Below, piece by piece: positions 17,548 to 34,763 of a stretch of 64,000 bases of DNA. The DNA is taken from NCBI GenBank assembly GCA_022711355.1, contig JAKLFE010000010.1, positions 1 to 64,000 on the forward strand, read 5' to 3'. The notes beneath the pieces were generated by a model, which had not been told where the DNA came from, made no database searches, and saw nothing but the letters and a program-made list of their open reading frames with translations. The position numbers and the translations under genes are program-made. This stretch comes from Spirochaetota bacterium. Lineage in GTDB: Bacteria; Spirochaetota; Spirochaetia; Treponematales; Rectinemataceae. The first letter of the stretch is position 1, and each line of letters starts with the position of its first letter.

Positions 17548-18342
17548 CTACAGGCCGCGCCAGAGCCGGGCGATCGCCTCCAGGGCGGCCTCGGAGGAGG
17601 CGGAGGGGGAGCACTCGAAGCCTACGTAGCCCTCGTAGCCCGCCTCGCCGAGGGCCGAAAGGACGGCATGCCAGTCGATCGCGCCCGTGCCCGGCTCGTG
17701 GCGCCCGGGGGCGTCCGCGACGTGGACGTGCTTGACGATCCGCGCGTAGCCCGCGACGAGGGAGAGCAGGTCGTCGCCCATCATGGCCTGGTGGTAGAAG
17801 TCGAGGAGGAGGCCGAAGCGCGGGTCGCCGACCTCGGAGACGAGGGCGGCCGCGGAGGAGAGCTTCGAGACGGCGTAGCCCGGGTGGTCCAGGGCGGTGT
17901 TGAGGGCCTCGATGCAGAGCGAGACCTCGACCCCGGCCGGTATGCGCCCGAGGAGGGCCCGGACGCAGGCGGCCATGGCGGCGATCTCGGAGGGGCCGGC
18001 CTCCCCGGGCCGAGGACGGAGGACCCTGCCTCCCTCGCCCAAGGACTGGGCGAGGAGCATCAGGTTCGGGCAATCGAGGAGGGAGCGCGCCTCCATGGCC
18101 GAGTCGAAGTCGGCGGCGACCAGGCCCCGCTGCGCGGGGTCCAGGAGGTCGCCCTCGCGGTGGCCGGAGAAGTTGGCCACCCGGACTCCGGCCGAACGGG
18201 CCGCGGCTGCGATGGCGGGGATGTCCTTGTCCTTCCAGGACCAGAACTCGACGGCGCCGAAGCCGGCGGAGGCGACGGCGGCGATCCTCTCTTCGTAGGG
18301 CAGCTCCTCGTGGAGCATCTCGATGCAGATGCAAGCTTCCAT
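17548..18342 (-). CDS. TIM-barrel sugar isomerase/epimerase (hydroxypyruvate-isomerase-like)
   Basis: A 264-residue AP-endonuclease-2-type barrel. Family metal ligands appear as EALN (about 150), LLLDFYHQ (about 180), VKHVHVADAPGRHEPGTG (about 210) and FECSPS near the end, closest to Hyi/OtnI. It is last in the sulfoquinovose locus, 101 bp after the second GH31 gene, so it may act on an SQ-derived or related sugar (for example 3-ketoglucoside/2-keto epimer) but its substrate cannot be read here. AAGGGGG lies 6 nt before the ATG. Confidence 0.82.
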   Translation of the reverse strand: MEACICIEMLHEELPYEERIAAVASAGFGAVEFWSWKDKDIPAIAAAARSAGVRVANFSGHREGDLLDPAQRGLVAADFDSAMEARSLLDCPNLMLLAQSLGEGGRVLRPRPGEAGPSEIAAMAACVRALLGRIPAGVEVSLCIEALNTALDHPGYAVSKLSSAAALVSEVGDPRFGLLLDFYHQAMMGDDLLSLVAGYARIVKHVHVADAPGRHEPGTGAIDWHAVLSALGEAGYEGYVGFECSPSASSEAALEAIARLWRGL

Positions 18343-18443
18343 CGCTTCCCCCTTGCGGCAGCCTCCATCTAGCGCGCACCGAGCGCCGCCGTCAACCGGC
18401 CCGGGAGGCTCCGGGCCGAGGCCGCCGCGCGGGGCGGCGCGCC

Positions 18444-20495
18444 TCAGGGGCGGGCGAAGAGCTCGACGAGGGAGGCGAAGAGGGGCGCGAAGGGGCTAAC
18501 CGCGCGGTAGAAGACCGGGGGCCGCCCGATCGGGGCCGGGAGCTCGAGCTCGCCCCCGCCGTAGGCCGCGCCGTCGAAGAGGCCGATCCAGGAGTCCTTT
18601 GGCAGGCGCAGCCTCCGCGCCCGGGCCCCCTCCGCGAGGACCGGGTAGACGGCGAGGTCGCGGCCGAGGAGGTAGGCGCGCTCCTCGTCGGGGCCGAAGC
18701 CCTCGCCGTAATGGAAAAAGAGGGGGCGCATCATCGGCAGCCCCCGCTCGAGATGCTCGCGTTGCGCGAACTCGAGGTAGGGGGCGAGGGCGGCGTGGAG
18801 CCGGCTCAGGCGGGCGACCGCCGCGACGGTCTCCGCGTCCGAGTCGAACTGCCAGTTGTCCCAGGGCCGGTTCCCCTCGTGGCTCCGCATCACCGGCATG
18901 AAGGCGCCGAGCTCGAGCCAGCGCAGGAAGAGCTCCTTGCCGCGGCGGATGCCCGGCAGGGTCGTATAGCCGCCTATGTCCGCGTGGACGATGCCGGCCC
19001 CGGACATGGCCAGGGAGAGGCAGGCCCGCACGACCGAGCCCAGGCCGTAGTCATCGCTCCAGTCGACGTGCTGGTCGCCGTTCCATAACAAGGTCGCATA
19101 ACGCGTACAGCCTGAATAGCCGCTGCGCGTGAAGAAGAGGGCCTCGCCCGAGGCCCCGGCCTCCTCGACGGCCTCGCGGTTGAGGCGGGCCCAAAGGAGG
19201 GGCCAGCGGTTGTGCCACTCCTCCCCTGAGCCGCCGGCGAGGATGGCGTCGGCGGGGAGGTACTCGCCGAAATCGGCCATCCAGCCCCGGAGGCCGAGGC
19301 CGAGGAGGTTCTCCTTGAGCAGGCCCTTGAGCCAGGCGTAGGCCTCAGGGTTCGTCAGGTCCACGATGCCGAAGGGGAAGCTCGTCGACTTCGTGAGGTA
19401 GGGCCCGCCCGCGGGGGAGAGGGCGAGGTAGCCCCGCTCGGCCGCCTCGGCGAAGAGCCGGCCGTCCTCGCAGAGGTAGGGATTGGCGTAGCCGAGGAAG
19501 GCCAGGCCCCGCTCCTGCCATTCGCGTATCTTCGCGGGGAGGCCCGGGTAGAGCCCCTGGTCCCAGCGCCAGTCCCAGCGCAGCTGCTTGCCGAAGTAGG
19601 TCAGCCGCTCGCCCTGCCAGTCCTGGGCCCAGATGCCGCAGACGGCGGCCCCGGCCTCCTCGAGGGCGCGGGCCTTGGCCTCGCAGGCCGCGGTCCCGCC
19701 CTGGATGCCGAGGATCATGCCCCCGTAGGCCCAGGAAGGCAGGGGGCCCTGGCGGCCGAGGAGGGAGCTGAGCCTGCCGACGAGCTCCGGATAGCCGGGG
19801 CCGCGGCCGAGGAGGATCCGCTCCGGGAGGCTCGAGAATCGTATACCGTGCCGATCCGGCCGGCGGAAGTCGAGGCTCCCGTAGGAGCCGCAGTCGACGT
19901 GGCAGAAGTAGCCGGCCGAGGAGACGAAGCTCGGCTGGGGAAAGTAGGTCGCGTAGCGGCGGAAGGCCCTGGTCCTCGGCCTTATTCCGAGGGCGAGGAG
20001 GAGGACCTTCCGTATCGCCTCGAGGGTGCCCACGTGCTCCTCGACCCAGATCCGCACGAGCTCGCCGCGGAGATCGAGCTTGGTGAAGTGCTCGCCGCAG
20101 CCGAAGATCCGCTCCTCGGGCCCGGCCGCGAGCTCGAGGGAAAAGGCGAGGCCGCGGCGCTCGGAGCGGGGGCGGAGGACCAGAAGTCCCCCCTCCTCCT
20201 CGACCCGGAGGCCGAGCTCGGGCCCGGGCTCCGCGGACCGGGCTCCGGGCCTTTTGCTCGGGCGGGCCAGCCGGAAGGACAGCTCCCAGGCCGAGTCCCC
20301 CCGGCGCTCGAAGCCCGCGAGCTCGAGGGCCGCGAGCCTCGTGCGGTCGCGGATGCGGAAGCGGCCCTTCCAGAGGCGGAAGCGCAGCCTCGGCTCGCCC
20401 GCGCGGAGGGCGGGGCTGGCCCTCGTGTGGCGGAGAACCGGCGCCCCCTCCCAGGAGAGGAGGAAGCCCCCGGGCAGGCGCTCGAGCTCGATCAC
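18444..20495 (-). CDS. GH31 sulfoquinovosidase-like enzyme, QQQWY variant
   Basis: A 683-residue cytosolic retaining alpha-glycosidase, clearly related to E. coli YihQ. Nucleophile D408 (WMADFGEYLP) and acid/base D474 (WNGDQHVDW) are present. Of YihQ's five sulfoquinovose-binding residues (Q262, Q288, R301, W304, Y508), four are kept as Q265, Q291, W307 and Y510, but the sulfonate-contacting Arg is Gln304 (FGKQLRW). It may therefore prefer a modified or different glycoside. Starts with an ATGA overlap on the GPH symporter gene, so substrate import and cleavage are coupled. Confidence 0.85.
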   Translation of the reverse strand: MIELERLPGGFLLSWEGAPVLRHTRASPALRAGEPRLRFRLWKGRFRIRDRTRLAALELAGFERRGDSAWELSFRLARPSKRPGARSAEPGPELGLRVEEEGGLLVLRPRSERRGLAFSLELAAGPEERIFGCGEHFTKLDLRGELVRIWVEEHVGTLEAIRKVLLLALGIRPRTRAFRRYATYFPQPSFVSSAGYFCHVDCGSYGSLDFRRPDRHGIRFSSLPERILLGRGPGYPELVGRLSSLLGRQGPLPSWAYGGMILGIQGGTAACEAKARALEEAGAAVCGIWAQDWQGERLTYFGKQLRWDWRWDQGLYPGLPAKIREWQERGLAFLGYANPYLCEDGRLFAEAAERGYLALSPAGGPYLTKSTSFPFGIVDLTNPEAYAWLKGLLKENLLGLGLRGWMADFGEYLPADAILAGGSGEEWHNRWPLLWARLNREAVEEAGASGEALFFTRSGYSGCTRYATLLWNGDQHVDWSDDYGLGSVVRACLSLAMSGAGIVHADIGGYTTLPGIRRGKELFLRWLELGAFMPVMRSHEGNRPWDNWQFDSDAETVAAVARLSRLHAALAPYLEFAQREHLERGLPMMRPLFFHYGEGFGPDEERAYLLGRDLAVYPVLAEGARARRLRLPKDSWIGLFDGAAYGGGELELPAPIGRPPVFYRAVSPFAPLFASLVELFARP

Positions 20496-21940
20496 CGCCC
20501 GGCCCCCATCTGGGCGTAGGGCTGGCCCGTTATGCGCTCGAGCTCTACGCGCTCGGCCTCGGGGGTCTGGCCCGAGGATCCCGCCCTCCGGCGCTCGAGC
20601 TCGGCCCGAAGGGCCGCGAAGCTCGCCGGGCTGACCGGGTAGCGGAGGGCGAGGAGGCCGCCCAGGGCGACGAGGGCCACCGGGGCGAGGGTGAACAGGA
20701 GGCGGAGGCCGAGGAGGGTCCCGGGCGGCTGGGCCGCCCCGGGGACGTAGCCGATGGCCTGGAGGAGGATGCCGACGAGCCAGAGCATGGCGGCCTGGAC
20801 GAGCTTGCGCGCGAGGGTGAAGGCCCCCGAGACCGCGCCGGAGCGCTGGATCCCCCGCGCGAGCTCGTCGGCGTCGGCCGACTCGGGGAGCATGGCCCAG
20901 GGCATGGCAGCGACGGCCGAGAGTCCGAGGCCGAGGGCGGCCGAGAGGCCGAGGAGGAGTGCCGTGGGGGCCCCGGGCCCGACGGCCGCGAAGGCCGCCG
21001 AGCCGAGGAGGAAGACGAGGGCGCCCAGGGCGTAGGCCCTCCCCTTGCCGAAGCGGTTCGCGAAGGCCAGGTAGGCCGGGAGGGCGAGGAGCTGGGCGAT
21101 GAGCATCGAGCCCAAGCAGAGGGTATAAGCCTCGCTCCGGCCGACGTAGTAGCTGAGGAAGTAGATGAAGAGGGCGGAGAGGATGTCGATGGCCGAGTAG
21201 CCCGCGAGGTAGAGCCCGACGTGGAGGCGGAAGGATCTGCAGCGAAGGAGGCTGCCCGTGTCGCGGAAGGAGGCGGCGAGGCTCGCGCTCGGCATCCGGC
21301 GCTCGGACTCGGGGAGCTCCCAGGTGCCGCGGTACACGAGGAGCCAGGGCAGGGCGAAGAAGAGGCCGAAGCCGAGGCCCATGACGAGGAAGCCCCGGCC
21401 CGGATCCTCGCGGTAGAGGTTCTTGACCAGGTAGCCCGGCAGCGTCCCCGCGAGGATGGAGGAGAGCTGGGAGAAGATCATGCGGGAGCCCGAGAGCCGG
21501 GTGCGCTCGCGGTAGTCATGAGTCATCTCCGTGGGCAGGGTCGAGTAGGGGATCATCACCATGGTCGAGACCGTGGCGAAGAGCATGTAGGCCCCGAGGT
21601 AGTAGAGGAAATCGAGGGTCGGATTCCCCGTGCGCACGCTCAGCCAGAGGAGGGCGAAGCTCGCGAAGACCGGCACGATGCCGGCGAGGAAGTACACGCG
21701 CCTGCGACCCAGGCGAGACCGGGTGCGGTCGGAGATGCAGCCCATGAGGGGATCGGAGACCGCGTCCCAGGCCTTGCCCGCGAAGACGACGAGGCCGGCC
21801 ATGGCGGGCTTGAGGCCGACCAGGTCGGTGAGGAAAAAAATGAAGAGGGTGCTGATGATGAGGAAGGAGCCCCCGCCGTAGAGGTCCCCGCAGCCGTAGG
21901 AGAGGAGGGCCGCCGCGCCCACCTTCCGCTCGTTCGCCAT
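20492..21940 (-). CDS. GPH-family (MelB-like) sugar:cation symporter
   Basis: A 482-residue transporter with about 12 membrane helices. The family signature is plain: GKAWDAVSDPLMGCISDRTRSRLGRR at about 50-77, with YSTLPTEMTHDYRERTRL later. YihO and YihP of E. coli SQ operons belong to the same family, so uptake of sulfoquinovose or its glyceride is likely. It overlaps the GH31 start by four bases and lies 24 bp after DUF4867. The locus therefore has two importers, this and an ABC system. Confidence 0.88.
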   Translation of the reverse strand: MANERKVGAAALLSYGCGDLYGGGSFLIISTLFIFFLTDLVGLKPAMAGLVVFAGKAWDAVSDPLMGCISDRTRSRLGRRRVYFLAGIVPVFASFALLWLSVRTGNPTLDFLYYLGAYMLFATVSTMVMIPYSTLPTEMTHDYRERTRLSGSRMIFSQLSSILAGTLPGYLVKNLYREDPGRGFLVMGLGFGLFFALPWLLVYRGTWELPESERRMPSASLAASFRDTGSLLRCRSFRLHVGLYLAGYSAIDILSALFIYFLSYYVGRSEAYTLCLGSMLIAQLLALPAYLAFANRFGKGRAYALGALVFLLGSAAFAAVGPGAPTALLLGLSAALGLGLSAVAAMPWAMLPESADADELARGIQRSGAVSGAFTLARKLVQAAMLWLVGILLQAIGYVPGAAQPPGTLLGLRLLFTLAPVALVALGGLLALRYPVSPASFAALRAELERRRAGSSGQTPEAERVELERITGQPYAQMGAGR

Positions 21941-21964
21941 GTCATGCCTCCCGTGATTATTGAA

Positions 21965-22663
21965 TCAGTACTTGATCTCGATGTTCTCCCCCGCGATGCC
22001 CGGCCAGGCTCCCCGCTCCACCAGGACGGCCCGCTCGGGATGTGCCAGGATCCACTTGTTCCGCATGAACAGGAGCCGCGCCTCCCCGCCCGCGGCCCTC
22101 GCCGCGGCGAGCTCGGCCTCGGAAAGGGCCGCGTTCGTGCCCCGGGGCAGGACGCAGAGGTTGCGGAAGCCCCCCTCCTCCACCCTGCAGGCGGAGAGGT
22201 GGAGGACCCCCGGGTCGAGCTCGACCGCCTCGCCCCGCCGCAGGAAGAGGCAGCCGAGGAGGGAGGCGTCGTAGGAGGACCAGGCCGCGATATCCTTGCG
22301 CAGGCCGACGAGGAGGGCGAGGTCGCTCAACGCGACGACAACCTCGGGAGACTTGTGCCACTCCAGGCCGTTCAGGCGGCTGTTGGGGCCCGAGCACCAG
22401 CCGACCTGGACGGGCGAGAGGCCGAAGGCGGCCTCGAGCTCTCGGGCCGCGGGGAGGGACTCGAGCGCGGGCTCCGAGGCCTGGTAGCGGTTGGCCTCGA
22501 GGCCCCGGGGCACGAGGCCGTCGGCGGCGGCGAGGAGGGCGCCGATGCCGCGCAGCGCGAGGGGCCGGCCGTAGGCCGCGAAGGGCTCTTCGCCGGGACC
22601 GAAGATCTCGAGGCCGGGGTTGGCCGCCCGGAGCCTGCCTATGTCCATGGCGCCGCCTTTCAC
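21965..22663 (-). CDS. DUF4867 family protein
   Basis: A 232-residue cupin-like protein of DUF4867. Conserved landmarks: GWCSGPNSRLNGLEWHKSPE (about 107-126), DLALLVG, ELDPGVLHLSACRV, GTNAAL, RNKWILAHPE and the end GENIEIKY. The His/Glu/Asp pattern may bind a metal. The family is usually found next to sugar isomerase and kinase genes and has no known reaction to my knowledge; an isomerase, epimerase or mutarotase step on SQ or sulfofructose is a fair hypothesis. GTG at 22663 overlaps the exporter stop (GTGA); ATG at 22648 is an alternative. Confidence 0.85.
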   Translation of the reverse strand: MKGGAMDIGRLRAANPGLEIFGPGEEPFAAYGRPLALRGIGALLAAADGLVPRGLEANRYQASEPALESLPAARELEAAFGLSPVQVGWCSGPNSRLNGLEWHKSPEVVVALSDLALLVGLRKDIAAWSSYDASLLGCLFLRRGEAVELDPGVLHLSACRVEEGGFRNLCVLPRGTNAALSEAELAAARAAGGEARLLFMRNKWILAHPERAVLVERGAWPGIAGENIEIKY

Positions 22664-23388
22664 GAAGCGAGCATGACCGCCCCCGACAGAAGGAGGGCGG
22701 AGAAGACCACGATGGAGAAGGAGCGCTGCTCCACGCGGTCGTGGAGGCGCTCGCCGAGAAGGATGCCCGCCGCGAGGAAGGGCAGGAGGAGGCCGATGGT
22801 CCTGAGGCTCCCCGCGCCGAGCTCACCCGAGGCGAGGTAGGAGCCGATGATGATGGCGTTCAGGCTGGTCCACAGGAGGCAGAGGGTCGCCCGGAAGGCC
22901 CCCTTCTCGGGCAGCTCCCGGGAGGCGTAGAGGACGACGAGGGGACCGCCCGAGGAGAACATGCCGTGGACGATCCCGCCCGCGACGAGGAGGGCGTAGG
23001 CCGCCGCCCGGGGCAGGCGGCCCCCGGCCAGGCGGGGGAGGAGGAGCTTGGCGAGCTGGGCCGCCGAAGCGAGGACGATGAAGGCGGCCAGGGCCTTCTT
23101 GGCCGGAGCGGGATCGACGCTGCGGAAGAGGAGCATGCCGACGGGCAGGCCGGCGAGGACGAAGCCGAGGATGATCGCATAACGTTTGAAGTCGATGTCG
23201 CGCCGCTTGGCGATCGCGATGTAACTAGAGATGATAAAGGCGAGGACCGTGAGGACGAGGACCCCCTCCCGCAGGCCGAGGAGTGCGGTCACGAAGGGCA
23301 GGGCGAGGACCGTGCAGCCGAAGCCCGTGACCGCCTCGAGGGCGTGGGTCGCGAGGACGACGAGGCCCGCGAGGAGGATGGAGCTCAA
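22660..23388 (-). CDS. TauE/SafE-family membrane exporter
   Basis: A 242-residue protein with about eight hydrophobic helices and the TauE/SafE pattern HALEAVTGFGCTVLALPFVTALLG at 12-35 and a related half-repeat GGIVHGMFSSGGPLVVLY. The family exports sulfite and organosulfonates (TauE, sulfoacetate, sulfolactate), so here it probably exports the C3 sulfonate left after sulfoglycolysis. The start is a TTG overlapping the TGA of the dehydrogenase (TTGA); no ATG exists before the first helix. Confidence 0.85.
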   Translation of the reverse strand: MSSILLAGLVVLATHALEAVTGFGCTVLALPFVTALLGLREGVLVLTVLAFIISSYIAIAKRRDIDFKRYAIILGFVLAGLPVGMLLFRSVDPAPAKKALAAFIVLASAAQLAKLLLPRLAGGRLPRAAAYALLVAGGIVHGMFSSGGPLVVLYASRELPEKGAFRATLCLLWTSLNAIIIGSYLASGELGAGSLRTIGLLLPFLAAGILLGERLHDRVEQRSFSIVVFSALLLSGAVMLAS

Positions 23389-24566
23389 GCCTTGGCCTCG
23401 AGGAAGGCGTAGACCGCCTCGGGCTCGGCCGCGGGCCTGGTGTTGGCCATCTTCGGATCCTCGAAGGCCCGGGCGAAGCGGCGGCGCAGCTCGCCGGGCC
23501 CGAGCTCGACGCCGAGCTCGCGGAAGCTCGAGGGAAGGCCCATCGCCGCCTTCAGCTCGAGGATCCGGCCGAGGAGGGCCTCGGCCCCCCTTCCGGGCGG
23601 GACGCCGAGGGCCGCGGCGCCGACCCGGCCGAGGCGCGCCTCTATCGCGGGATCGCGCCGGGCCCAGCGGAGGCAGTCCTCGATGCTGAAGGCGCAGGCC
23701 GCCCCGTGGGGGACCCGCCACTCCTCCGTCAGCACGAAGGAGAGGGCGTGGCCCATGGCCGTGCCGGTGATCCCGAAGGCGAAGCCGGCCATGGCCGAGG
23801 CCTCGAGCATGGCGAGGGCGGCGGCCGGGTCGGGCCGGCCGCCCGCGGCGAGGGCCCGGGCCGCCTCGTAGGAGCGCGGCAGGCGGCCGAGGACGGCGAC
23901 GGCGGCCTCGGTCGCGGCCTCGATAGTCGCCGGCGCGGCGTTGCGGTTCCACAGGGACTCGAGGGCGTGGTCGAGGGCGTCGAAGCCCGTCGAGGCGGCG
24001 AGCTCGGGCGGCATGGCCGCGGCGAGGGCGCCCACGAGGAGGGCGGCGTCGGCCTGGAGGAAAGGGGAGCCGAGGGTATGCTTGCGCCCCGTGCCGTCGC
24101 GGTAGACCCCCACCTTCGTGACCTCGGCCCCGGTGCCGGCCGTGGTCGGCACCAGGAGGAGGGGCAGGCCCTTGGCCTCGAGGCGGCGGGAGGGGGCGGG
24201 GCCGAGGCAGTCCGCGAGGCGGGCGCCCGGCGCGGGGGCCAGGGCCGCGAGGGCCTTGGCCGAGTCGAGGACCGAGCCGCCCCCGATCCCGACCAGGAGC
24301 TCGGCGCCCGCGAGGGCCCCGGAGCCGAGCATCGCGTCGATGTCCGAGGCCAGGGGATCGGGGCTCACGCGGTCGAGGAGGACCGTCTCGTAGGCCCGCC
24401 GCAGGCCCGCGACGAGGCGCTCCCGCTCGGGGAAGGGCCGCCCGTCGACGAGAACGGCGACCTTGGCCGGGCCGCGGCCGAGGTAGGCGACGGCCTGGGC
24501 GAAGTCGGCGGGGGAGAGGTCCTCGAAGGAGAGTACCCGGGTCGGGCAGAGGAGGGAGCTCAGCAT
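23385..24566 (-). CDS. iron-type alcohol dehydrogenase, probable sulfolactaldehyde reductase
   Basis: A 393-residue group III (Fe-ADH) dehydrogenase. The N half binds NAD(P) (GIGGGSVLDSAKALA near 93); PTTAGTGAEVTK follows; metal ligands are D and H of GFDALDHALE (about 195) and the His of GTAMGHAL and RVPHGAA. In the proposed pathway it reduces 3-sulfolactaldehyde to 2,3-dihydroxypropane-1-sulfonate, regenerating NAD+, as Fe-ADHs do in some fermentative SQ degraders; this is inferred from context. Confidence 0.85.
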   Translation of the reverse strand: MLSSLLCPTRVLSFEDLSPADFAQAVAYLGRGPAKVAVLVDGRPFPERERLVAGLRRAYETVLLDRVSPDPLASDIDAMLGSGALAGAELLVGIGGGSVLDSAKALAALAPAPGARLADCLGPAPSRRLEAKGLPLLLVPTTAGTGAEVTKVGVYRDGTGRKHTLGSPFLQADAALLVGALAAAMPPELAASTGFDALDHALESLWNRNAAPATIEAATEAAVAVLGRLPRSYEAARALAAGGRPDPAAALAMLEASAMAGFAFGITGTAMGHALSFVLTEEWRVPHGAACAFSIEDCLRWARRDPAIEARLGRVGAAALGVPPGRGAEALLGRILELKAAMGLPSSFRELGVELGPGELRRRFARAFEDPKMANTRPAAEPEAVYAFLEAKA

Positions 24567-24575: not shown

Positions 24576-25052
24576 CTAGCGGAGGTTCCGCGCTTCGATG
24601 GCGGCCACCTCTTTGAGGGCATTGGCGAGGAAGTCGCGCTTGAACTCCATCTTCTGGGCGAAGGACATCGCGAGCCAGGCCTCGACGATCTGGCAGCCGA
24701 GGAAGGGGGCGGTGATCCAGCCGCCCAGGGTGATCACGTTGGCGTCGTTGACGATCTTGGCCCGCTCGCCCGAGAAGATGTCGTCGACCACGCAGGCGTA
24801 GACGCCCTTGTGCTTGTTGGCCACGATGGCCATGCCCTGGCCCGTGCCGCAGACGAGGATGCCCCGCTCGGCCTCGCCGCGGCGGATGGCCTCGGCCACC
24901 TTGGGGGCCTGGACGAAGTAGGGCTCGGGATGCTCGGGATCGGCTATGCCGAAGTCGAGGAGCTCGATCTCGGGGTGCTTCTCGGCGAGATGCTTGGCGA
25001 TCTCGCTCTTGAGGGGGAAGCCGGAGAGGTCCGATGCGATGGCGAGTTTCAT
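24576..25052 (-). CDS. RpiB/LacAB-like isomerase
   Basis: A 158-residue aldose-ketose isomerase of the RpiB fold with the catalytic Cys in VCGTGQGMAIVANKHKG. Two residues that handle phosphosugars in E. coli RpiB are changed: the DH of its CDHVG is DL (SDLSG), and the His of QHND is Val (IVNDAN). In the transketolase-type SQ pathway an RpiB-like enzyme isomerises 4-deoxy-4-sulfoerythrose to its ketose; this gene's place next to split transketolase genes fits that role. Overlaps the upstream gene by ATGA. Confidence 0.85.
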   Translation of the reverse strand: MKLAIASDLSGFPLKSEIAKHLAEKHPEIELLDFGIADPEHPEPYFVQAPKVAEAIRRGEAERGILVCGTGQGMAIVANKHKGVYACVVDDIFSGERAKIVNDANVITLGGWITAPFLGCQIVEAWLAMSFAQKMEFKRDFLANALKEVAAIEARNLR

Positions 25053-26847: not shown

Positions 26848-28160
26848 TCGGCCACCTCCCAGCCCTTGAGGCGGGCGGCGAGTCGGAGGGGGGCGGAATA
26901 GGAGCCGTAGACCGCGGAGGCGTGGTGGGCGAAGCCCTTGTACACGATGAGGTCGAGGAGCTCCTTCACGGGGCGGCCGAACTCGACCTTGGCGTAGGTG
27001 CCCGAGAGCTCCTTCTCCATGGGCAGGGCCCTCCCCTCCTGGAGGAGGAGGCGGCGCTTGCCGCGGGCCGAGTCGAGGCGGGCGATCGAGACGGGCCCGG
27101 CCTTGAGGACGAAGCCCGCGGTCACGCCCCTGCCCCCGGCGAAGTAGGTGTCGAGGCTCCGCTTCGAAACGCCGTCCCAGAGGTTGCAGGGGGCCACCCC
27201 GCAGTGCCACAGGAGGGCGTAGTTCTTCTCGAGATCGACCTGGGAGAAGTCGAAGAGGAAGGGCGTCTCGCCGCCGACGGCGCGATGCGCGATCATGGAC
27301 AGGGCCCCCTCGAGGTCTCCCTCGCAGGCCAGGAGGCGTCCCTCGGACTGGAGGAGGGACATGGCGGCGCAGGGCGCCACGCCGTAGTCCCGGGCGAACT
27401 CGGGCCAGCAGCGGATGGCCAGGGCCGTGAGGCCCGTCCGGCCGCAGAAGGCGTCGATCCGGGCGGCGAGCTCGGCCACCTTGGCGACCTGGGCCTCGGT
27501 GACCCCGGAGCAGTCGAAGGTCCCCCGGAGCTGCTCCCGGCGCAGCTCGAGGGCCGAGGGCGCGGCCGGCTCGGCGTAGAGCTCCGAGAGCTCGAAATGG
27601 TCGACCAGGGCCCCGACCTCGCCGAAGAGCTCGGTGTCGGAGACCCCGAGGTTGAAGAAGCCGTGGGCCCGGTCGCCGGCCACGCCGACCCGTGCCCTCC
27701 GGAGGGCGGCGATGGCGCGTATCGCGTCCACCCAGGTCTCGTCGATGCCCGGCCCCACGGAGGCCGTGTAGTCGTCCACCCCCGACTTGTAGAGGTTCGA
27801 GGCGTCGAGGTTGACCCCGCAGACCGAGTTGAGCCTGATCTTGCCCCCGTCGTAGGGCAGCTCGGGCAGGCCCCAGAGGAGGAAGGGGAGGCGGAGCTCC
27901 GAGCGCAGCTCGAGGACGAGGTGGCCCAGGTGGAAGGTCCCCGACAGGCACACCATGCCGTCGAGGCCGGCCGCGGCCAGGCGGGCGGCCGCGCGCCGCG
28001 CGTCCTCCACGGAGATGACGAGGCCGGGCAGCGCCTCCCAGTCGACGTTCTCGAGCCTCGAGAGCTCGCGTACGAGGCCCTCGTAGATGGCCGCGGCGGC
28101 CTTGTGGTCGAAGGTCTCGCGCGCGAGGCAGACGAGGCCGAGCTTGATCCGCTCCTTCAT
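26844..28160 (-). CDS. L-fucose/arabinose-isomerase-like sugar isomerase, probable SQ isomerase
   Basis: A 438-residue protein of the FucI/AraA fold. N-terminal Rossmann-like domains (KLGLVCLARETFDHKAAAAIYEGL; MVCLSGTFHLGHL) precede the catalytic half with ALAIRCWPEF, CEGDLEGALSMIAH (metal Glu/Asp) and the late His in LLWHCGVAP. As first gene of the operon that continues into transketolase, it is the natural candidate for sulfoquinovose to 6-deoxy-6-sulfofructose. ATG at 28160 has AAGGAAGG just upstream and follows the ROK-type operator. Confidence 0.87.
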   Translation of the reverse strand: MKERIKLGLVCLARETFDHKAAAAIYEGLVRELSRLENVDWEALPGLVISVEDARRAAARLAAAGLDGMVCLSGTFHLGHLVLELRSELRLPFLLWGLPELPYDGGKIRLNSVCGVNLDASNLYKSGVDDYTASVGPGIDETWVDAIRAIAALRRARVGVAGDRAHGFFNLGVSDTELFGEVGALVDHFELSELYAEPAAPSALELRREQLRGTFDCSGVTEAQVAKVAELAARIDAFCGRTGLTALAIRCWPEFARDYGVAPCAAMSLLQSEGRLLACEGDLEGALSMIAHRAVGGETPFLFDFSQVDLEKNYALLWHCGVAPCNLWDGVSKRSLDTYFAGGRGVTAGFVLKAGPVSIARLDSARGKRRLLLQEGRALPMEKELSGTYAKVEFGRPVKELLDLIVYKGFAHHASAVYGSYSAPLRLAARLKGWEVAE

Positions 28161-28168: not shown

Positions 28169-28221
28169 CTTGGTATTTACTTTCTTTTAGAAAGTAAATA
28201 CCAAGAGCGATGTTTCGTCAA
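28169..28221 (-). promoter_or_regulatory. promoter and ROK-type operator of the isomerase/transketolase operon
   Basis: TTGACG (28216-28221), 17 bp, TTTACT (28193-28198) on the minus strand. The -10 lies inside a perfect inverted repeat with 16-bp arms, CTTGGTATTTACTTTC (28169-28184) and its complement (28190-28205), spaced by 5 bp. The core is shared with the operator at 34717-34741. Confidence 0.85.
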
Positions 28222-28337: not shown

Positions 28338-29543
28338 CTAGGCGAGGAAGAAGGCGTCGAGGACGAGGTCGGCGGCCCCGCGCTGGGCGAGGGCCGGGTC
28401 GTAGGCCCTGCCGTGGAAAGCGGGGAGGACCCGGTCGAAGCCCGAGCCCGCCTCGGCGATCCGCGCGCGGACGCGGCCGGCGAGGCCCTCGGCCACCTCG
28501 GCCGAGGCGGCGACGAAGAGGTAGGAGGCCGGCTCGAAGAGGCGGGAGACCGTGCGCGCGGCCGAGGCCAGGGAGGCCGAGGCCTCGTCGAGGACGGAAG
28601 CGGCGGCCGCGGCCCGCTTCCCGCCCGCGGCCAGCTCGGGGCCGAGGCCCTCGAAGAGCCAGCGCCCGGCGTCGAGGTTGCCGCGGTCGAGGGCGCAGAG
28701 CCGGGCCTCGAGGCAGCCCCGGGAGCCGCAGGGGCAGTCGGGCCCGTCCAGGGAGACCGAGAGGTGGCCGGTCTCGATGGTGCGGCCGCGGGAGGTGAGG
28801 TGGAGGCGGCCGGAGTCGACGAAGGCCCCGTTGACCCCGGAGCGGAGGAGGAACATGAAGGTCGAGTCTTCCTCGCCCAGGTCCCCGTGGCGGAACTCGC
28901 TCAGGGCCACGACCGAGCAGTTGTTGTGGATGGTCACCGGGAGTCCCAGCCTCGACTCGAGGCGCTCGGCCGCGGGGAAGTCCGTCATGCCGGGGATGCG
29001 GGCGTAGAAGGAGACCGCGCGGCGGCCGACGTCGACCTGGCCCGGGGCCCCGAGGCCGAGGCCGAGGACCCGCTCCGTGGCGATCCCGAGGCCGGCGAGG
29101 GCCTTCGAGACCCGGGCGGCCACGGTGGCGAGGACCTTCTCGGCGCCCTGGGCGGGATCGAGGGGGAAGACCTTGGAGTAGAGGGCCCGGCCTCGGAAGT
29201 CGAAGACCCCGAGGGAGAGGCTGCCGGCCCAGAACTCCACTCCGACCAGGACGCAGGCCTCGGCGCGGGCCAGGTAGGAGGCGGGGCGCCTGCCCTTGCG
29301 CTCGGAGCGGCCGGCCGGGACCGCCTCGGCCGCGCCCTGGGGCGCCAGCTCGATGTAGCCGGCGGCCTCGAGGGAGGAGAAGATGCGGAAGATGGTCGGG
29401 GCCTTGAGGCCCGTGGCGGCGACGGCCTCGGACTGGGAGAAGCCCCGATCGCCCGAGCCGTGGATGAGGCGGAGGACCAGCTTCTCGTTGCGCTCCCGCA
29501 CGTCGGAGGCGCGCAGGGGGTTCTGCTCGGGTGACATCGCCAC
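28338..29543 (-). CDS. ROK-family transcriptional repressor
   Basis: A 401-residue XylR/NagC-type regulator: N-terminal winged helix (about 15-65, FSQSEAVAATGLKAPTIFRIFSSLEAAGYIEL), then the ROK sugar-binding/kinase-like domain with LGLGLGAPGQVD and the zinc motif CPCGSRGCLEAR (about 268-280). Repressors of this class release DNA on binding sugars; the ligand is probably SQ or sulfofructose. It is the last gene of the ABC/SQase operon and most likely binds the two ATTTACTTwC-N5-GAAAGTAAmT operators. GTG at 29543 follows the GH31 stop by 4 bp; ATG at 29537 is possible. Confidence 0.88.
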   Translation of the reverse strand: MAMSPEQNPLRASDVRERNEKLVLRLIHGSGDRGFSQSEAVAATGLKAPTIFRIFSSLEAAGYIELAPQGAAEAVPAGRSERKGRRPASYLARAEACVLVGVEFWAGSLSLGVFDFRGRALYSKVFPLDPAQGAEKVLATVAARVSKALAGLGIATERVLGLGLGAPGQVDVGRRAVSFYARIPGMTDFPAAERLESRLGLPVTIHNNCSVVALSEFRHGDLGEEDSTFMFLLRSGVNGAFVDSGRLHLTSRGRTIETGHLSVSLDGPDCPCGSRGCLEARLCALDRGNLDAGRWLFEGLGPELAAGGKRAAAAASVLDEASASLASAARTVSRLFEPASYLFVAASAEVAEGLAGRVRARIAEAGSGFDRVLPAFHGRAYDPALAQRGAADLVLDAFFLA

Positions 29544-29547
29544 GATA

Positions 29548-31683
29548 CTACGCCGGCGGGCGGCCGGGAGGCAATGCGCCCCCCGCCGCTCCCGCGGCCG
29601 GGGCGGCTCCCGCGGGCCCCGTCTCTCCGGCAGCGGCCGCGGCGGCCCGGCGGAAGAGCCCGGCCCAGGGCGAGCCCGCGCGATAGAAGGCCGGGGGCCT
29701 CCCGATCGTCGCGTCGGCCTCGAGATCGAGGCCGGCCGGCGCCGGCGCGCTCAAGCGGGGCCCGCCCCAGAGGGGGAGCCAGTCCCCGGGCGGGAGGTGG
29801 ACCGTCCGTGAGCGGGCGAGCTCGCGGATCACGGGCGCGACGAGGAGGTCGGGGCCGAGGAGGTACTCGTCCTTGATCGACCATGCGGCCTCGTCCTCCT
29901 CATGCTCGAGGAAGACCGGCCGCATCACCGGGATGCCCCGCTCCGCGTTCTCGGCGACGGCCGCCTTGAGGTAGGGCTTGAGGGCGACGTGGAGGCGGCC
30001 CATGGAGGCCAGATGGGAAAGGGTCTCGGCGTCGGAGTCGAACTGCCAGTTGTCCATGGGACGGTTCCCCTCGTGGCCGCGCATGAGGGGGGAGAGGGCA
30101 GCCTGTTCCGCCCAACGCATGAAAAGCTCCTTCGTGCGCTTCATGCCGTAGAGGGTGGTGTAGCCGCCGATGTCCGAGTGCGAGAGCCCGTGGCCCGAGA
30201 GGCCGAGGGAGAGGGCGGCGGGGATCACCGAGGGCAGGCCGTCGTCCTCCGACCAGTCGACGTTCTGGTCCCCGGCCCACATCATGGGGCACTGGCGCTG
30301 GGAGCCGGGCCCGCCGGCGCGCATGAAATAGAGGATCTCGGCGGCGGCCTCGGGGCCGCAGGCGTCCACGGCCTCGCGGTTGCAGCGGGCCCAGAGAGCG
30401 GGCCAGGCGTTGTGCGCCTCCTCGGCGCTCTCGCCCGAGGCGAGGATGGCGTCGGTGGGCAGGTACTCGCCGAAGTCGGCCATCCAGCCGGATAAGCCGA
30501 AGCCGAGGAGGTTCCCGCGGATGACCGACTTATACCACTCGAAGGCCGCCGGGCTCGTCAGGTCCACGATGCCGGCCTCGAACTCGCCGAAGTCGACGAG
30601 GTAGTCGGCCCCGGACCCGTCCTTGGCCAGGAAGCCGCGCTCCCGGGCCTCGAGGAAAAGGCTCCGATCCTTGGCGAGATAGGGGTTGATGTAGCCGAGG
30701 AAGCGGACGCCCTCGCCCTGGAGCCGGAGGATGGCCTCGTCGAGGCCGGGGTAGCGCTCCCGGTCCCAGACCCAGTTCCAGCGCAGGCGCTGGCCGAAGG
30801 AGGTCAGATTGATGCCCTCCCAGTCCTGGGCCCAGATCCCGCAGACGGGGACCCCCGCGGCCCGGGCGGCCCCGAGCTTGGCCAGCACGGCCTCGGTGCC
30901 GCCCTGGACCCCGAGGATGACCCCGTCGTAGGCCCAGTCGGGCAAGAGCCCCTGGCGGCCGAAGAAGGCCGATAGATCCTCGACGATGCCGCGCATCGTG
31001 CCCGCCGAGCCGACTACCAGGCGCTCGGGCAGGGCCCAGGCGCGCAGCTCGTGGCGCTCGGGGGCGCGGAAGTCGAAGGCGGCGTAGGCGCTCGTGTCGA
31101 GGTAGGCCCAGAGGCGGCGCGAGGAGACGAAGCTCGGCTGGGGGAAGAAGGTCCAGAAGTAGTCTCCCCCCGAGCCGCCCTCGGCGTCGGCCAGGCGGGT
31201 GATCTCGGTGGCCTTGTTGCGGCCCACGCCCTGCTCGCTCGTCCACAGGGGGAACTCGCGGCCCCGCAGGTCCAGGTAGGAGAACTGCTCCCCGCAGCCG
31301 TAGACCTTCTCGGCGGCCTCGGCGACGAGGCGGAAGGCCCAGCGGTCGGCGAGCCGGGCCGCCTCGTCGCCCGCCTCGAGGCGCAGGACCAGGCGGCCAT
31401 CCTCGATCGCGCAACGCGCGATGAGGATGTGCCTCCCTCCCGCCGAGAAGCGGACGATGGCCGCCTCCCTGGAGGACTCGAGGAGCTCGGCCTCGCGCAG
31501 CTCGACGGACTCGAGCTCCCGGTCGGAGATCCGGAAATTGCCCCGGTTCATCTCGAAGCTCCCCTCGCCGCGGCCGGCCCGGGCGAAGGGGGAGGCGGCC
31601 GAGTGCCGGATGACGGGCTTGCCGTCGAGCCTGAGCTCGAGGGAGCCCGGGCCGGCGGAGACCGAGAGGCGGCTAAAGGCCAT
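29548..31683 (-). CDS. yihQ: sulfoquinovosidase, GH31 (YihQ-like)
   Basis: A 711-residue glycosidase releasing sulfoquinovose from sulfoquinovosyl glycerol/diacylglycerol headgroups. It aligns closely with E. coli YihQ: nucleophile D403 (WMADFGEYLPTD), acid/base D472 (WAGDQNVDWS), and all five SQ-binding residues, Q260, Q286, R299, W302 and Y508 (YihQ Q262, Q288, R301, W304, Y508). No signal peptide, so it acts in the cytosol on imported glycosides. The last 25 or so residues are a low-complexity Ala/Gly/Pro tail. Starts 6 bp after the second permease gene. Confidence 0.93.
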   Translation of the reverse strand: MAFSRLSVSAGPGSLELRLDGKPVIRHSAASPFARAGRGEGSFEMNRGNFRISDRELESVELREAELLESSREAAIVRFSAGGRHILIARCAIEDGRLVLRLEAGDEAARLADRWAFRLVAEAAEKVYGCGEQFSYLDLRGREFPLWTSEQGVGRNKATEITRLADAEGGSGGDYFWTFFPQPSFVSSRRLWAYLDTSAYAAFDFRAPERHELRAWALPERLVVGSAGTMRGIVEDLSAFFGRQGLLPDWAYDGVILGVQGGTEAVLAKLGAARAAGVPVCGIWAQDWEGINLTSFGQRLRWNWVWDRERYPGLDEAILRLQGEGVRFLGYINPYLAKDRSLFLEARERGFLAKDGSGADYLVDFGEFEAGIVDLTSPAAFEWYKSVIRGNLLGFGLSGWMADFGEYLPTDAILASGESAEEAHNAWPALWARCNREAVDACGPEAAAEILYFMRAGGPGSQRQCPMMWAGDQNVDWSEDDGLPSVIPAALSLGLSGHGLSHSDIGGYTTLYGMKRTKELFMRWAEQAALSPLMRGHEGNRPMDNWQFDSDAETLSHLASMGRLHVALKPYLKAAVAENAERGIPVMRPVFLEHEEDEAAWSIKDEYLLGPDLLVAPVIRELARSRTVHLPPGDWLPLWGGPRLSAPAPAGLDLEADATIGRPPAFYRAGSPWAGLFRRAAAAAAGETGPAGAAPAAGAAGGALPPGRPPA

Positions 31684-31689
31684 CGGCGC

Positions 31690-32547
31690 TCAGCCCTTCA
31701 CCGCGCCGGCCGTGAGGCCGGCGACGATCTTGTCGTGGAGGAAGGCGTAGGCGAGGACGGTCGGGGCGATGGAGAGGACGATGGCGGCGAACATGCCCGT
31801 GTAGTCGGTGACGAACTGGCTCGTGAAGAAGCGGATGCCGAGCTGGATGGTCCGCGCGGAGAGGCTCGAGGTGAGGAGCATCGCCATGAGGAACTCGTTC
31901 CAGGCGTAGATGAAGCAGAAGGTGCCCGCGGTGACGAGGCCCGAGCGGGAGAGGGGGAGGACCACCTTCCAGAAGCGGCCGGCGAAGCCGCAGCCGTCGA
32001 TGATGGCCGCCTCCTCGAGCTCCTTGGGCACCGTGCGCATGAAGGAGCTCACCAGGAAGACCGAGACGGGGATGTTGATCGCGGCGTAGACGAGAACGAG
32101 GGCGGCCAGCTTGTCGTAGAGCCCCGCGCGGGTCATGAGGGTGAAGTAGGGCACCATGAAGGCGATGAGGGGCACGAGGACCCCCGCGGTCAGGGCGGTG
32201 TGCAGCGCCTCGCGGCCGCGGAAGGACTCGCGCGCGAGGGCGAAGGAGGCCAGGGAGGCGACCGCCAGGTTGAGGGCGACCGCGCAGGCGGCCACGAGGA
32301 CCGAGTTCGCGAAGAGCCGGGGCAGGTCGGCCGTGGCCAGGGCGGTCGCGTAGTTCGCCAGGCTCGGGCGGGCGGGCAGGGCGAAGGGCGCTGCCTCGAG
32401 CTCGAGGTTGGTCTTGAGCGAGTTGACCAGGAGCCAAGCCAGGGGGAGGAGGGACACGAGGAGGAAGAAGCCGAGGAAGGCCCACATGGCGAGCCTCGCC
32501 GCGGCTCGCCCGGTGGTCATGGTTTCGCGCATCGCGTCCTTCCTCAT
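31690..32547 (-). CDS. ABC sugar permease, MalG type
   Basis: A 285-residue inner-membrane permease with about six helices and the ATPase-docking EAA loop (LEEAAIIDGCGFAGRFWKVVLPL, about 190). It forms the import channel with the MalF-type subunit before it. ATG at 32547 overlaps the preceding stop (ATGA); ATG 32532, with AGGAAGG 5 nt upstream, is equally likely. No ATP-binding subunit is encoded in the window. Confidence 0.92.
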   Translation of the reverse strand: MRKDAMRETMTTGRAAARLAMWAFLGFFLLVSLLPLAWLLVNSLKTNLELEAAPFALPARPSLANYATALATADLPRLFANSVLVAACAVALNLAVASLASFALARESFRGREALHTALTAGVLVPLIAFMVPYFTLMTRAGLYDKLAALVLVYAAINIPVSVFLVSSFMRTVPKELEEAAIIDGCGFAGRFWKVVLPLSRSGLVTAGTFCFIYAWNEFLMAMLLTSSLSARTIQLGIRFFTSQFVTDYTGMFAAIVLSIAPTVLAYAFLHDKIVAGLTAGAVKG

Positions 32548-33428
32548 TGGGCGGCCTCGGCCAGGGGATCGCCGCGGCCGAGGGCCCGGCGCAGGGCCGC
32601 CACGAGGACCGTGCCCAGGAGGATGAGGATCATGCCGGCGGCGCTCGCCTCGCCGTAGCGCAGGGCGTCCATCTTGAGGTACAGGGCGATGCCCATGGTC
32701 GAGGTGGAGTAGGCCGGCCCGCCCCCGGTCATGAGGAAGGTCGACTCGAAGTGGCGCATGCCGTAGGCCATGGCCAGGGTGACGCAGGTGGCCAGGCTCC
32801 CCCGGAGCATGGGCAGCGTGATGCGGAGCTCCTGGACCAGGGTCGAGGCCCCGTCGATCTGGGCCGCCTCGTAGAGCTCGCGCGGGATCGAGAGGGCCGC
32901 GGCGAGGAGGATGATCATGTAGTAGCCGATGTAGACCACGGTCTGGAGGATCACCGCGGCGAGGGCGGTCGAGGGATCGCCGAGCCAGTGCCGCGCAGGC
33001 AGGCCGACCAGGCCGAGGAGGGCCTTGAAGGCCCCGTACTGGGGGTTGTAGAGGGTCACCCAGACCATGGCCAGGGCCACGGTGGAGATGACGTTCGGGA
33101 GGAAGTAGATCGTCCGCAGGAGCCGCCAGCCCCGGGGCCCCCGGGCCAGGATCATCGCGACGAGGGCGGCCAGGGGCACCTGCACGAAGCCGGAGGCCAG
33201 GGCCCATATCGCGTTGTTCCGCATGGCCAGGCGGAAGGAGGAGTCGCCGAGGAGCTTGGCGTAGTTCGCGAGGCCGTTCGGGCTCATCCCCCCCCCGCCC
33301 TTCCACCTCATCAGGCTCGTGACGAGGGTGAAGCCCAGGGGGTAGAGGAAGAAGGCGGCGAAGAGGAGGAGCGCCGGCGCGAGGAAGAGGGCGATCAATC
33401 CTAGGTTGCGGTTTCCGTGCCGGCGCAT
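32544..33428 (-). CDS. ABC sugar permease, MalF/UgpA type
   Basis: A 294-residue permease with six predicted membrane segments and the EAA loop YEAAQIDGASTLVQELRITLPML at about 190-213. It pairs with the following permease and receives substrate from the binding protein encoded 13 bp upstream. By context the cargo is sulfoquinovose or sulfoquinovosyl glycerol. Confidence 0.92.
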   Translation of the reverse strand: MRRHGNRNLGLIALFLAPALLLFAAFFLYPLGFTLVTSLMRWKGGGGMSPNGLANYAKLLGDSSFRLAMRNNAIWALASGFVQVPLAALVAMILARGPRGWRLLRTIYFLPNVISTVALAMVWVTLYNPQYGAFKALLGLVGLPARHWLGDPSTALAAVILQTVVYIGYYMIILLAAALSIPRELYEAAQIDGASTLVQELRITLPMLRGSLATCVTLAMAYGMRHFESTFLMTGGGPAYSTSTMGIALYLKMDALRYGEASAAGMILILLGTVLVAALRRALGRGDPLAEAAQ

Positions 33429-33441
33429 CGACTCTCCTATC

Positions 33442-34698
33442 CTAGCGGTCGATCTTCTTCTCGACCAGGGCGCAGAACTCCTCGGCCGTGACCTTCCCCA
33501 GGGCGAGGGCCCCGAGCTGCTGGGCGAACTCGAGGGTGGCCTCGGCGCCGAGGGCGGCCTCGAGGTCGTTGGCCGTCACCTTGGAGGCGGCGGCTATGTC
33601 GTAGAACTGCTTCTGCAGGGGATCGATGGGCACGTAGCCCGAGTCGATCGCGAACATGGCGCCCGAGCTCTGGGCGAGCTTGCGGACGTTCTCCTCGCTC
33701 GTCAGGAACCGGAGGAACTGGACGATGGCGGCGCGGCGGGCCTTGTCCTTGGTCTCGCCGGCGGCGACGTTGGCCTGGAGGCGGCTGATCATGAAGTTCT
33801 TGGTCGGGCCGGGGGCGGGGGCCCGGGCGATGACGATGCTCGGGAAGAAGGGCGTAGCCCGGAGGTCGGCCCGGCCGGCGTACCAGGGGCCGTTCGAGAA
33901 GAGGGCGGTGCGGCCCGCGAGGAAGTGGCCGCCGGAGACCCCGGCCCCCGCGCCCACGGCGTCAGGCGTCGTGTAGCCCTCGAAGATCCGCTTCATGAGC
34001 TTGGCCGACTCGACGAAGGCCTTGTCGGTGAAGGGCTTCGCCCAGATATCGGGGCCGCCGAAGGAGACGGCGAAGTGGGAGAACCAGATCATGCTCGTCC
34101 AGGCGTTGGTGTCGCCGGACATCTGGCTCATCGGGGCGATCCCGGAGGCCTTGATCTTGTCCATGGCGGGCCAGAACTCGGCCATGGTGCTCGGGACGCT
34201 CGAGACGCCGGCGGCCTTGAGGGCGGCGCTGTTGTACCAGATGGGGAGGACGGCGGTCTCGAAGGGGAGGGTCTTGAGCTTCTTGTCGATCGTCGACTGG
34301 GCCAGGGCCCCGGCGTCGAAGGAGGCCCTCCAGGCTCCCGTCAGGTCCTTGGAGAAGTCCATGAGGAGCTTGTTCGAGTAGAAGTCCTTGGTCGAGGCGT
34401 TGAGCTTCAGGGTGAAGATGTCCCCGGGCGCCTGGCCCGCCATGAGGGCGGTCCTGACCTTCTGCTCGTAGGCGTTGTAGTCCGGCTGGGGCTCGATCTC
34501 GACGCGGACCTTGCCGGCGTTGGCGGCGTTGAAGGCCTCGACGATCTCGGCGATTGCGGGGGCCTTGGAGTCCTTGCCGACCCAGATGCAGGGCCACTTG
34601 AGGACGATCTCCTTGCCCTGGGCCGCGGCCAGGGAGGGCAGGGCGAGCAGGGCGAGGAGCGCGAGGGCGAGGACGCGGGAACGCGCCGTAGTTCTCAT
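33442..34698 (-). CDS. extracellular sugar-binding protein of the ABC importer
   Basis: A 418-residue family-1 binding protein: signal peptide with probable cleavage after LPSLAAA (about 26), then typical features AEIVEAFNAANAGKVRVEIEPQPDYNAYEQKVRTALMAGQAPGDIF and an FLTSEENVRKLA segment. No lipobox Cys, so it is periplasmic rather than lipid-anchored. First gene of the ABC/SQase/ROK operon, with AAGGAGG 5 nt before the ATG and the operator just upstream. Confidence 0.92.
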   Translation of the reverse strand: MRTTARSRVLALALLALLALPSLAAAQGKEIVLKWPCIWVGKDSKAPAIAEIVEAFNAANAGKVRVEIEPQPDYNAYEQKVRTALMAGQAPGDIFTLKLNASTKDFYSNKLLMDFSKDLTGAWRASFDAGALAQSTIDKKLKTLPFETAVLPIWYNSAALKAAGVSSVPSTMAEFWPAMDKIKASGIAPMSQMSGDTNAWTSMIWFSHFAVSFGGPDIWAKPFTDKAFVESAKLMKRIFEGYTTPDAVGAGAGVSGGHFLAGRTALFSNGPWYAGRADLRATPFFPSIVIARAPAPGPTKNFMISRLQANVAAGETKDKARRAAIVQFLRFLTSEENVRKLAQSSGAMFAIDSGYVPIDPLQKQFYDIAAASKVTANDLEAALGAEATLEFAQQLGALALGKVTAEEFCALVEKKIDR

Positions 34699-34716
34699 GG
34701 GAGCCTCCTTGAGAAT

Positions 34717-34763
34717 AGTTACTTTCCGGAAGTAAGTAAATCATGAGAGCGGGGAGGCGTCAA
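34717..34763 (-). promoter_or_regulatory. promoter and ROK-type operator of the ABC/SQase operon
   Basis: TTGACG (34758-34763), 17 bp, TTTACT (34735-34740) on the minus strand. The -10 lies in ATTTACTTAC-TTCCG-GAAAGTAACT (34717-34741), which matches the core of the repeat at 28175-28199 at 9 of 10 bases in each arm with the same 5-bp spacing. Confidence 0.85.

Follow-up and report, generated by a model that had tools for sequence, protein, structure and literature searches.

The 64,000-nucleotide window analysed here (contig JAKLFE010000010.1 of assembly GCA_022711355.1) comes from a spirochaete of the family Rectinemataceae. Its minus strand carries what is very probably a sulfo-transketolase (sulfo-TK) locus for the catabolism of sulfoquinovose (SQ), regulated by a ROK-family protein and belonging to the isethionate branch of that pathway. 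Sulfo-TK is already known in spirochaetes; this locus is an additional member, which extends the branch to Rectinemataceae, a family for which no report of sulfo-TK was found in a literature search. The evidence consists of gene content, motifs, phylogeny and a conserved palindrome, from which substrates, products, ROK binding and induction are predicted. The locus is ordinary in kind, and the parts worth following are its operator, the active-site signature of its SqwI protein and the GH31 glycosidases with glutamine at position 301.

In the published pathway, a two-carbon unit is moved twice from a sulfosugar to glyceraldehyde-3-phosphate, leaving sulfoacetaldehyde, the substrate of either SqwF, which makes isethionate by reduction, or SqwD and SqwKL, which make sulfoacetate by oxidation (PMC11659671; PMC12890257; PMC9594981). 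In the window, SQ glycosides would enter through the ABC or the GPH importer, and GH31-A, and probably GH31-B, would release SQ from them. The FucI-like isomerase would convert SQ to 6-deoxy-6-sulfofructose (SF), from which the split transketolase would transfer C2 to glyceraldehyde-3-phosphate, yielding xylulose-5-phosphate and 4-deoxy-4-sulfoerythrose. After isomerisation of sulfoerythrose to sulfoerythrulose by the RpiB-like enzyme, a second C2 transfer would leave sulfoacetaldehyde, to be reduced to isethionate by the iron-containing alcohol dehydrogenase (Fe-ADH) and exported by TauE. The ROK protein would repress both transcription units at a palindrome covering the -10 region. Of the six carbons of SQ, the pathway takes four, and how widely it is distributed matters for the sulfur cycle; isethionate from sulfo-TK can feed sulfide producers, according to PMC13219744.

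The first-pass annotation of this DNA had recognised transketolase-type sulfoglycolysis in a probable spirochaete, and this is well supported by the gene set, the RAFDR motif of the transketolase, the active-site pattern of the RpiB-like protein and the grouping of the Fe-ADH. It was mistaken in restricting this branch to some Firmicutes, since a review, with reference to Liu 2021 and Chu 2023, states that it occurs among Spirochaetes (PMC12890257), and since sulfo-TK is transcribed in a rumen metagenome-assembled genome (MAG) of Sphaerochaetaceae (PMC13219744). It also had the second transketolase step produce sulfolactaldehyde, the Fe-ADH reduce this to 2,3-dihydroxypropanesulfonate (DHPS), and a C3 sulfonate exported. 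An Fe-ADH and a TauE protein would indeed suit any small sulfonate aldehyde and its product, but the carbon count leads elsewhere: C6 minus C2 gives C4, and C4 minus C2 gives C2, which is sulfoacetaldehyde, as in the published pathway. Two C2 transfers from a C6 sulfosugar thus leave a C2 sulfonate rather than DHPS, and the product is probably isethionate instead of the proposed three-carbon compound. The transaldolase family PF00923 has no match in the whole genome (a 4.1 Mb draft, 79% complete), a control being positive in 10 of 14 genomes, and no YihT-type aldolase occurs among the locus proteins, so that DHPS formation can hardly be entertained. The reported lack of the aldolase and kinase of the sulfo-EMP pathway and of the SF transaldolase of the sulfo-transaldolase pathway stands genome-wide, in the 79%-complete draft, for the transaldolase; for the YihT- and YihV-type families it holds among the locus proteins scanned, these families not having been searched genome-wide.

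All the genes previously listed were recovered by Pfam/NCBIfam scans or alignment, in order on the minus strand. They form two runs, an importer unit (34698-28338) and a catabolic unit (28160-18444), in a window of 67.7% GC. The importer unit encodes an ABC solute-binding protein (SBP), two permeases, GH31-A and the ROK repressor; the catabolic unit encodes the SQ isomerase, the transketolase N and C subunits, the RpiB-like protein, the Fe-ADH, TauE, DUF4867, the GPH importer and GH31-B. Four gene junctions of the catabolic unit show a 4-base overlap, which makes this run look like a single operon. The cluster thus holds what is looked for in a member of the isethionate branch: a FucI-like SQ isomerase, a split transketolase in which RAFDR replaces RSFHR, a PF02502 isomerase (SqwI) and, as judged by family and phylogeny, a putative PF00465 reductase with its exporter. 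The gene set recurs across dozens of named contigs, and chance is therefore excluded.

The FucI-like SQ isomerase (26844..28160, SqvD/SftI type) was assigned by neighbourhood and named relatives. Related loci were taken as the best 80 of 167 confirmed SQ-isomerase relatives, in named genomes, and neighbours were scored as matches above 60 bits, contig ends cutting some of the loci. The full core of SQ isomerase, both transketolase subunits and RpiB-like protein is present in 34 of the 80, accompanied by a GH31 enzyme in 23 of these and by DUF4867 in 28. The neighbours of the SQ-isomerase relatives are SQ genes, which speaks against the idea that the closest homologues come from loci for other sugars, in a set gathered by the isomerase itself. 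Stretches found by the RpiB-like protein alone provide an independent check, and both transketolase genes are present in 15 of 16 of them. One SQ-isomerase relative lies on contig WESA01000018.1 of Rectinema subterraneum, classified by NCBI in Rectinemataceae, Treponematales, Spirochaetota.

The transketolase is divided into an N subunit (SqwG-like, 26005..26847, PF00456, with its ATG at 26847) and a C subunit (SqwH-like, 25049..26002, identified by family match and motif alignment). Alignment of the C subunit reveals R7, A34, F80, D106 and R161, that is RAFDR, the published motif form of SF-transketolases (PMC11659671), where 6YAK has RSFHR. RAFDR is found in 34 of 37 homologues of the C subunit from SQ loci (two others have RGFDR and one is cut), and in none of five other thiamine pyrophosphate (TPP) enzymes of the same genome, just some of which are transketolases.

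The RpiB-like protein (24576..25052, PF02502) is a predicted sulfoerythrose/sulfoerythrulose isomerase. By active-site alignment, it keeps the isomerase residues Cys66 and Thr68 and has lost His10 and His99 (E. coli RpiB numbering). We take His99 of RpiB to be the ring opener and Cys66 the base. A ring opener is not needed for four-carbon substrates without a free C4 hydroxyl, since these cannot close a ring, and the loss of the histidines with Cys and Thr kept thus fits a tetrose unable to cyclise. The pattern is constant: the window protein and all 37 RpiB-like proteins from SQ loci (three of the 37 from stretches that do not contain both transketolase genes) keep CGTG, whereas His99 is replaced by Val or Ile and His10 by Leu, Lys or Arg. 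Both histidines are kept in three canonical RpiBs, those of E. coli and Pararhizobium and a second RpiB of this genome. This signature of the active site lends support, short of proof, to the proposed SqwI step. A close relative of the protein (E <= 1e-40, at least 53% identity) is encoded in 22 of 392 genomes of the phylum, including this one.

Both histidines are also lost in three RpiB-like proteins from the OiaX locus of R. etli and from plasmid loci of K. variicola and Pantoea, all three taken as tetrose-type from their neighbour genes. This brings in another explanation, namely an ordinary pentose/tetrose phosphate locus of the erythrulose/apionate type that recruited GH31 enzymes, the more so as the Klebsiella and Pantoea plasmid loci, which look erythrulose-type, hold RpiB-transketolase pairs too. 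Against this, the window has RAFDR in its transketolase, a YihQ-type enzyme with QQRWY, the SQ isomerase, TauE and DUF4867. The last four are not annotated in the two plasmid stretches, and family scans find no sugar-phosphate kinase among the locus proteins. A recruited tetrose locus is thus highly improbable.

A second RpiB-like and transketolase pair is present in the same genome, on contig C9 (L167, 3824-11193). Its RpiB-like protein has lost both histidines too, its transketolase motif is RSFYR, and it adjoins an aldehyde dehydrogenase and a TPP enzyme in what resembles an inositol locus. This pair, like the Asgard archaeal loci described below, is treated as separate from the SQ system of the window.

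The end of the sulfo-TK pathway would be ensured by the Fe-ADH (23385..24566, PF00465), a SqwF-like predicted sulfoacetaldehyde reductase, and by the TauE/SafE exporter (22660..23379, PF01925, SqwE-like), followed by DUF4867 (21965..22663, PF16161), called SftX in a figure legend of PMC13219744. The 27 Fe-ADHs of SQ loci, the window's included, form one group (98/96) in a tree with a small outgroup, made up of 8 paralogues from this genome and 3 Fe-ADHs from E. coli. Among the 34 core loci, 20 have Fe-ADH and/or TauE and no SqwD (three of these with a SftT-like transaldolase as well), 8 have SqwD but no Fe-ADH or TauE, 2 combine the two kinds of tail and 4 show none of these genes. Breznakiella homolactica RmG30 and Sphaerochaeta halotolerans 4-11 (L055, L059) have the core together with Fe-ADH and TauE. 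With the core loci split in this way, the pathway tail behaves as an exchangeable module, varying even within one genus: in a genus of the same family, one genome (G008) has Fe-ADH and TauE, and another (G017) shows the start of SqwD after RpiB at a contig end. This variation, and the frequency of oxidative tails in relatives, lend some credit to an oxidative version of the pathway, in which sulfoacetaldehyde would pass through sulfoacetyl-CoA to sulfoacetate with a gain of ATP. However, family scans reveal no SqwD, SqwKL or DASS exporter among the locus proteins, and Fe-ADH and TauE occupy their place. Genome-wide, SqwD has a single match, at 35% identity and on another contig; SqwKL was not searched genome-wide. 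The oxidative version is very unlikely for this locus.

Several points weigh against the isethionate-branch assignment. The SQ isomerase scores 181.8 bits against the NCBIfam SftI model, below the cut-off of 700, and this is why its assignment rests on neighbourhood and named relatives. In several of the sulfo-TK stretches retrieved with RpiB, a close SQ isomerase is missing, or a distant one at 23-27% identity is present. The Fe-ADH is 30-35% identical to the clostridial branch, the spirochaete branch being long, and the GPH importer is found in just 2 of the 34 core loci. According to a 2022 review (PMC9594981), spontaneous isomerisation stood in the way of assaying SqwI, whose activity could not be measured directly. 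A generic promoter scan reported neither of the two -35-like hexamers described below nor any sigma-70 site. Finally, no exit for xylulose-5-phosphate was identified in the 79%-complete genome, neither transaldolase nor phosphoketolase being found there. Phosphoketolase was considered as this exit and rejected, its one match being a weak one to SqwG itself.

The closest known systems are those of Clostridium sp. MSTE9, Caproiciproducens and Faecalicatena (SqwGH/SqwI/SqwF), which have in common with the window the SQ isomerase, the split transketolase, the RpiB-like protein, the Fe-ADH and a C2 sulfonate (PMC11659671; PMC13219744). RAFDR itself was reported for the Faecalicatena transketolase (PMC11659671). 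In contrast to these systems, the window has no transaldolase branch, a pair of YihQ-type GH31 enzymes and a different type of ROK protein. The clostridial locus L105, with the same gene order, served as a stand-in for the characterised sequences; identities are 54% for the SQ isomerase, 56% and 47% for the transketolase N and C subunits, 46% for RpiB and 31% for Fe-ADH. The sulfo-TK system of Sphaerochaetaceae (Neosphaerochaeta fermentans MAG, rumen) belongs to the same phylum and pathway, with SqwF, SqwE and SftX (DUF4867) given in the figure legend (PMC13219744), and Sphaerochaeta loci carry the operator as the window does. Compared with the published description of that MAG, the window comes from another family and has a GPH importer and a second GH31 enzyme with Gln301.

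GH31-A (29548..31683) is 53% identical to E. coli YihQ by alignment and has Q262, Q288, R301, W304 and Y508 together with D405 and D472. The earlier description of a YihQ-like enzyme with all five SQ-binding residues is thus borne out, and both catalytic aspartates are present, as required of a sulfoquinovosidase. QQRWY is presumably the fingerprint of the sulfonate site in sulfoquinovosidases, although a literature search over partly available texts found no paper using the term QQRWY fingerprint. GH31-B (18444..20495) is a YihQ-subfamily glycosidase with 43% identity to YihQ. It shares the catalytic aspartates with YihQ and GH31-A and differs at position 301, at position 176 and in the rim loop. 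Arg301 is replaced by Gln and the other four residues are kept (QQQWY), so that the QQRWY set is incomplete. No report on Gln301 GH31 enzymes was found in the partly available literature searched.

Gln301 is by no means confined to the window. The GH31 sets comprised matches above 150 bits for the residue survey and those above 490 residues for the tree and the Arg/Gln count. Of 51 SQ-locus enzymes with either residue at position 301, a number which includes E. coli YihQ and both window enzymes and leaves out L087 (neither Arg nor Gln), 31 have Arg and 20 have Gln. A Gln301 enzyme is the sole GH31 in the fetched stretch of three full-core sulfo-TK loci (L054, L081 and L097), and in L177 it is encoded directly upstream of the transketolase genes. 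For these reasons, Gln301 enzymes probably still act on SQ glycosides. Screening by the Arg301 fingerprint would miss them. In the tree, GH31-B groups with L047, L102 and L118 (a long branch) beside the Arg301 YihQ clade. The possibility that the Gln301 enzymes form one clade was rejected, the tree requiring at least two gains or losses. Compensation by an arginine at position 303 was rejected as well, since Gln301 enzymes have F, K, Q, M, Y or R there.

Another difference is seen at position 176, in a loop that is hard to align, where Asp is found in 52 of 58 Arg301 sequences and Arg or Lys in 16 of 25 Gln301 sequences. For this comparison, alignments of 330 residues or fewer and near-duplicates were dropped, reducing 95 sequences to 89, among which GH31-B appears twice (W_GH31B and L133) along with YihQ and YicI from E. 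coli and a pair of unrelated GH31 enzymes. The pattern would suit a shift of the positive charge to the rim of the active site. In GH31-B, position 176 is Arg, and the rim loop, unlike that of YihQ, is modelled as a helix at 157-168; the structure model has a mean pLDDT of 91.6, with values below 50 for model residues 176-179, in the rim loop to which the Arg aligned to position 176 belongs. A tentative proposal, to which we give somewhat less than an even chance, is that GH31-B represents an unrecognised class of sulfoquinovosidases binding the sulfonate without Arg301, which may prefer other SQ conjugates, and that, together with the ROK operator, it would define an SQ regulon with two entries in spirochaetes, which could be delimited from DNA alone. 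A third YihQ-subfamily-like GH31 of the genome, on contig C42 (L168, 13906-17133), is about 43% identical to GH31-B and appears to be without the SQ-binding residues.

The ROK-family repressor (28338..29543, PF00480 with a MarR-type helix-turn-helix) would act through a palindrome, TTACTTWCTnnnnGAAAGTAA, which spans the promoters of both units. On the minus strand, the predicted operator upstream of the SBP gene (34719..34739) reads TTACTTACTTCCGGAAAGTAA, and that upstream of the SQ isomerase gene (28177..28197), a perfect palindrome, reads TTACTTTCTAAAAGAAAGTAA. A -35-like hexamer TTGACG lies 17 nucleotides from TTTACT in each unit, at 34758..34763 for the importer unit and 28216..28221 for the catabolic unit, both also on the minus strand. 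These -35 calls are based on a constant spacing of -24 seen among related sites, the generic scan having reported none: TTGA(C/T) stands exactly 24 bases upstream in 37 of 120 oriented occurrences (each palindrome counted in both orientations, with one mismatch allowed in this -35 count), so that the first half-site would coincide with the -10 element.

Strand matches of the palindrome in the window number 4, against a mean of 0.00 in 100 shuffled windows. When up to 2 mismatches are allowed, the 4.1 Mb draft has no site beyond these two, the backward control pattern giving 1. With two mismatches allowed, the relaxed pattern has 93 matches in 46 of the 80 SQ loci, versus 7 in the reversed sequence and 1-8 in shuffled ones. 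In 37 of the 80, a site with at most 2 mismatches precedes the SQ isomerase gene by no more than some 160 bases; the 43 without one include the clostridial and Asgard loci, and some spirochaetes as well. Across 40 spirochaete genomes, picked mainly for having SQ genes, sites with at most one mismatch occur in 28, with a total of 54 against 6 for the backward control. Eighteen further stretches were inspected in which the site is on a different contig or at a distance from the isomerase. Sixteen have it beside a transketolase, an ABC solute-binding protein or a GH31/GPH pair; in the remaining two, it stands before another MFS transporter and beside a gene without assigned identity. The site, with up to one mismatch allowed, accompanies 23 of 24 loci with a ROK protein at least 34% identical to that of the window, 4 of 14 with a more distant one and 10 of 42 without ROK in the stretch, contig ends truncating some of these loci. 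The helix-turn-helix region of the ROK protein is alike among spirochaete SQ loci, and we infer that this protein binds the predicted operator. No report of such a ROK/operator site for SQ genes in spirochaetes was found in the partly available literature searched. The 21-bp operator would provide a genome-wide marker for SQ genes.

Two other occurrences of the operator deserve mention. In G008, an SQ-type operator (L242, 7261-7281) directly precedes a gene for an MFS transporter, and further upstream lie an amidohydrolase gene and a NagB-like one; these genes are possible further members of the SQ regulon. L068, labelled Clostridiales, is a Sphaerochaeta-like SQ locus with the operator, which reflects either transfer or misbinning.

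The import functions of the locus would be provided by the ABC solute-binding protein (33442..34698, PF01547), the two permeases (32544..33428 and 31690..32550, both PF00528) and the GPH (MFS_2) importer (20492..21940, PF13347), all on the minus strand; family scans found no ABC ATPase among the locus proteins. A hydroxypyruvate-isomerase-like TIM barrel, identified by family match, adjoins the system on the same strand (17548..18342). It has no match above 60 bits across the 80 related SQ loci, and for this reason it probably lies outside the SQ system, which corrects the bounds of the locus.

As regards the isomerase step in other genomes, L176 (G048) and L179 (G040) combine sulfo-TK genes with SqwD/SqwKL and have no FucI-type SQ isomerase in the stretch; no match to it was found in either genome at E <= 0.001. 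A different isomerase may replace the FucI type there. A substitute was sought in G048, which has SqwGHI and YihQ, and the operator pointed to an SBP-amidohydrolase-Gfo/Idh unit, with no isomerase.

Twelve of the 80 SQ-isomerase loci are labelled Asgard archaea, among them L090, L099, L104, L108, L117 and L119. A YihQ-like GH31 is present in 10 of the 12, and a SftT-like transaldolase directly precedes the SQ isomerase in 6, so that they look like SQ loci of the sulfo-transaldolase (sulfo-TAL) type. A literature search by title or abstract found no report on SQ catabolism in Asgard archaea or Lokiarchaea. Two Lokiarchaeal loci, L104 (3-9108) and L119 (514-9096), each carry six transporter genes of the same family before the transaldolase and SQ isomerase genes. 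This family is GPH according to one scanned member, from L090, and one of the L119 copies is short.

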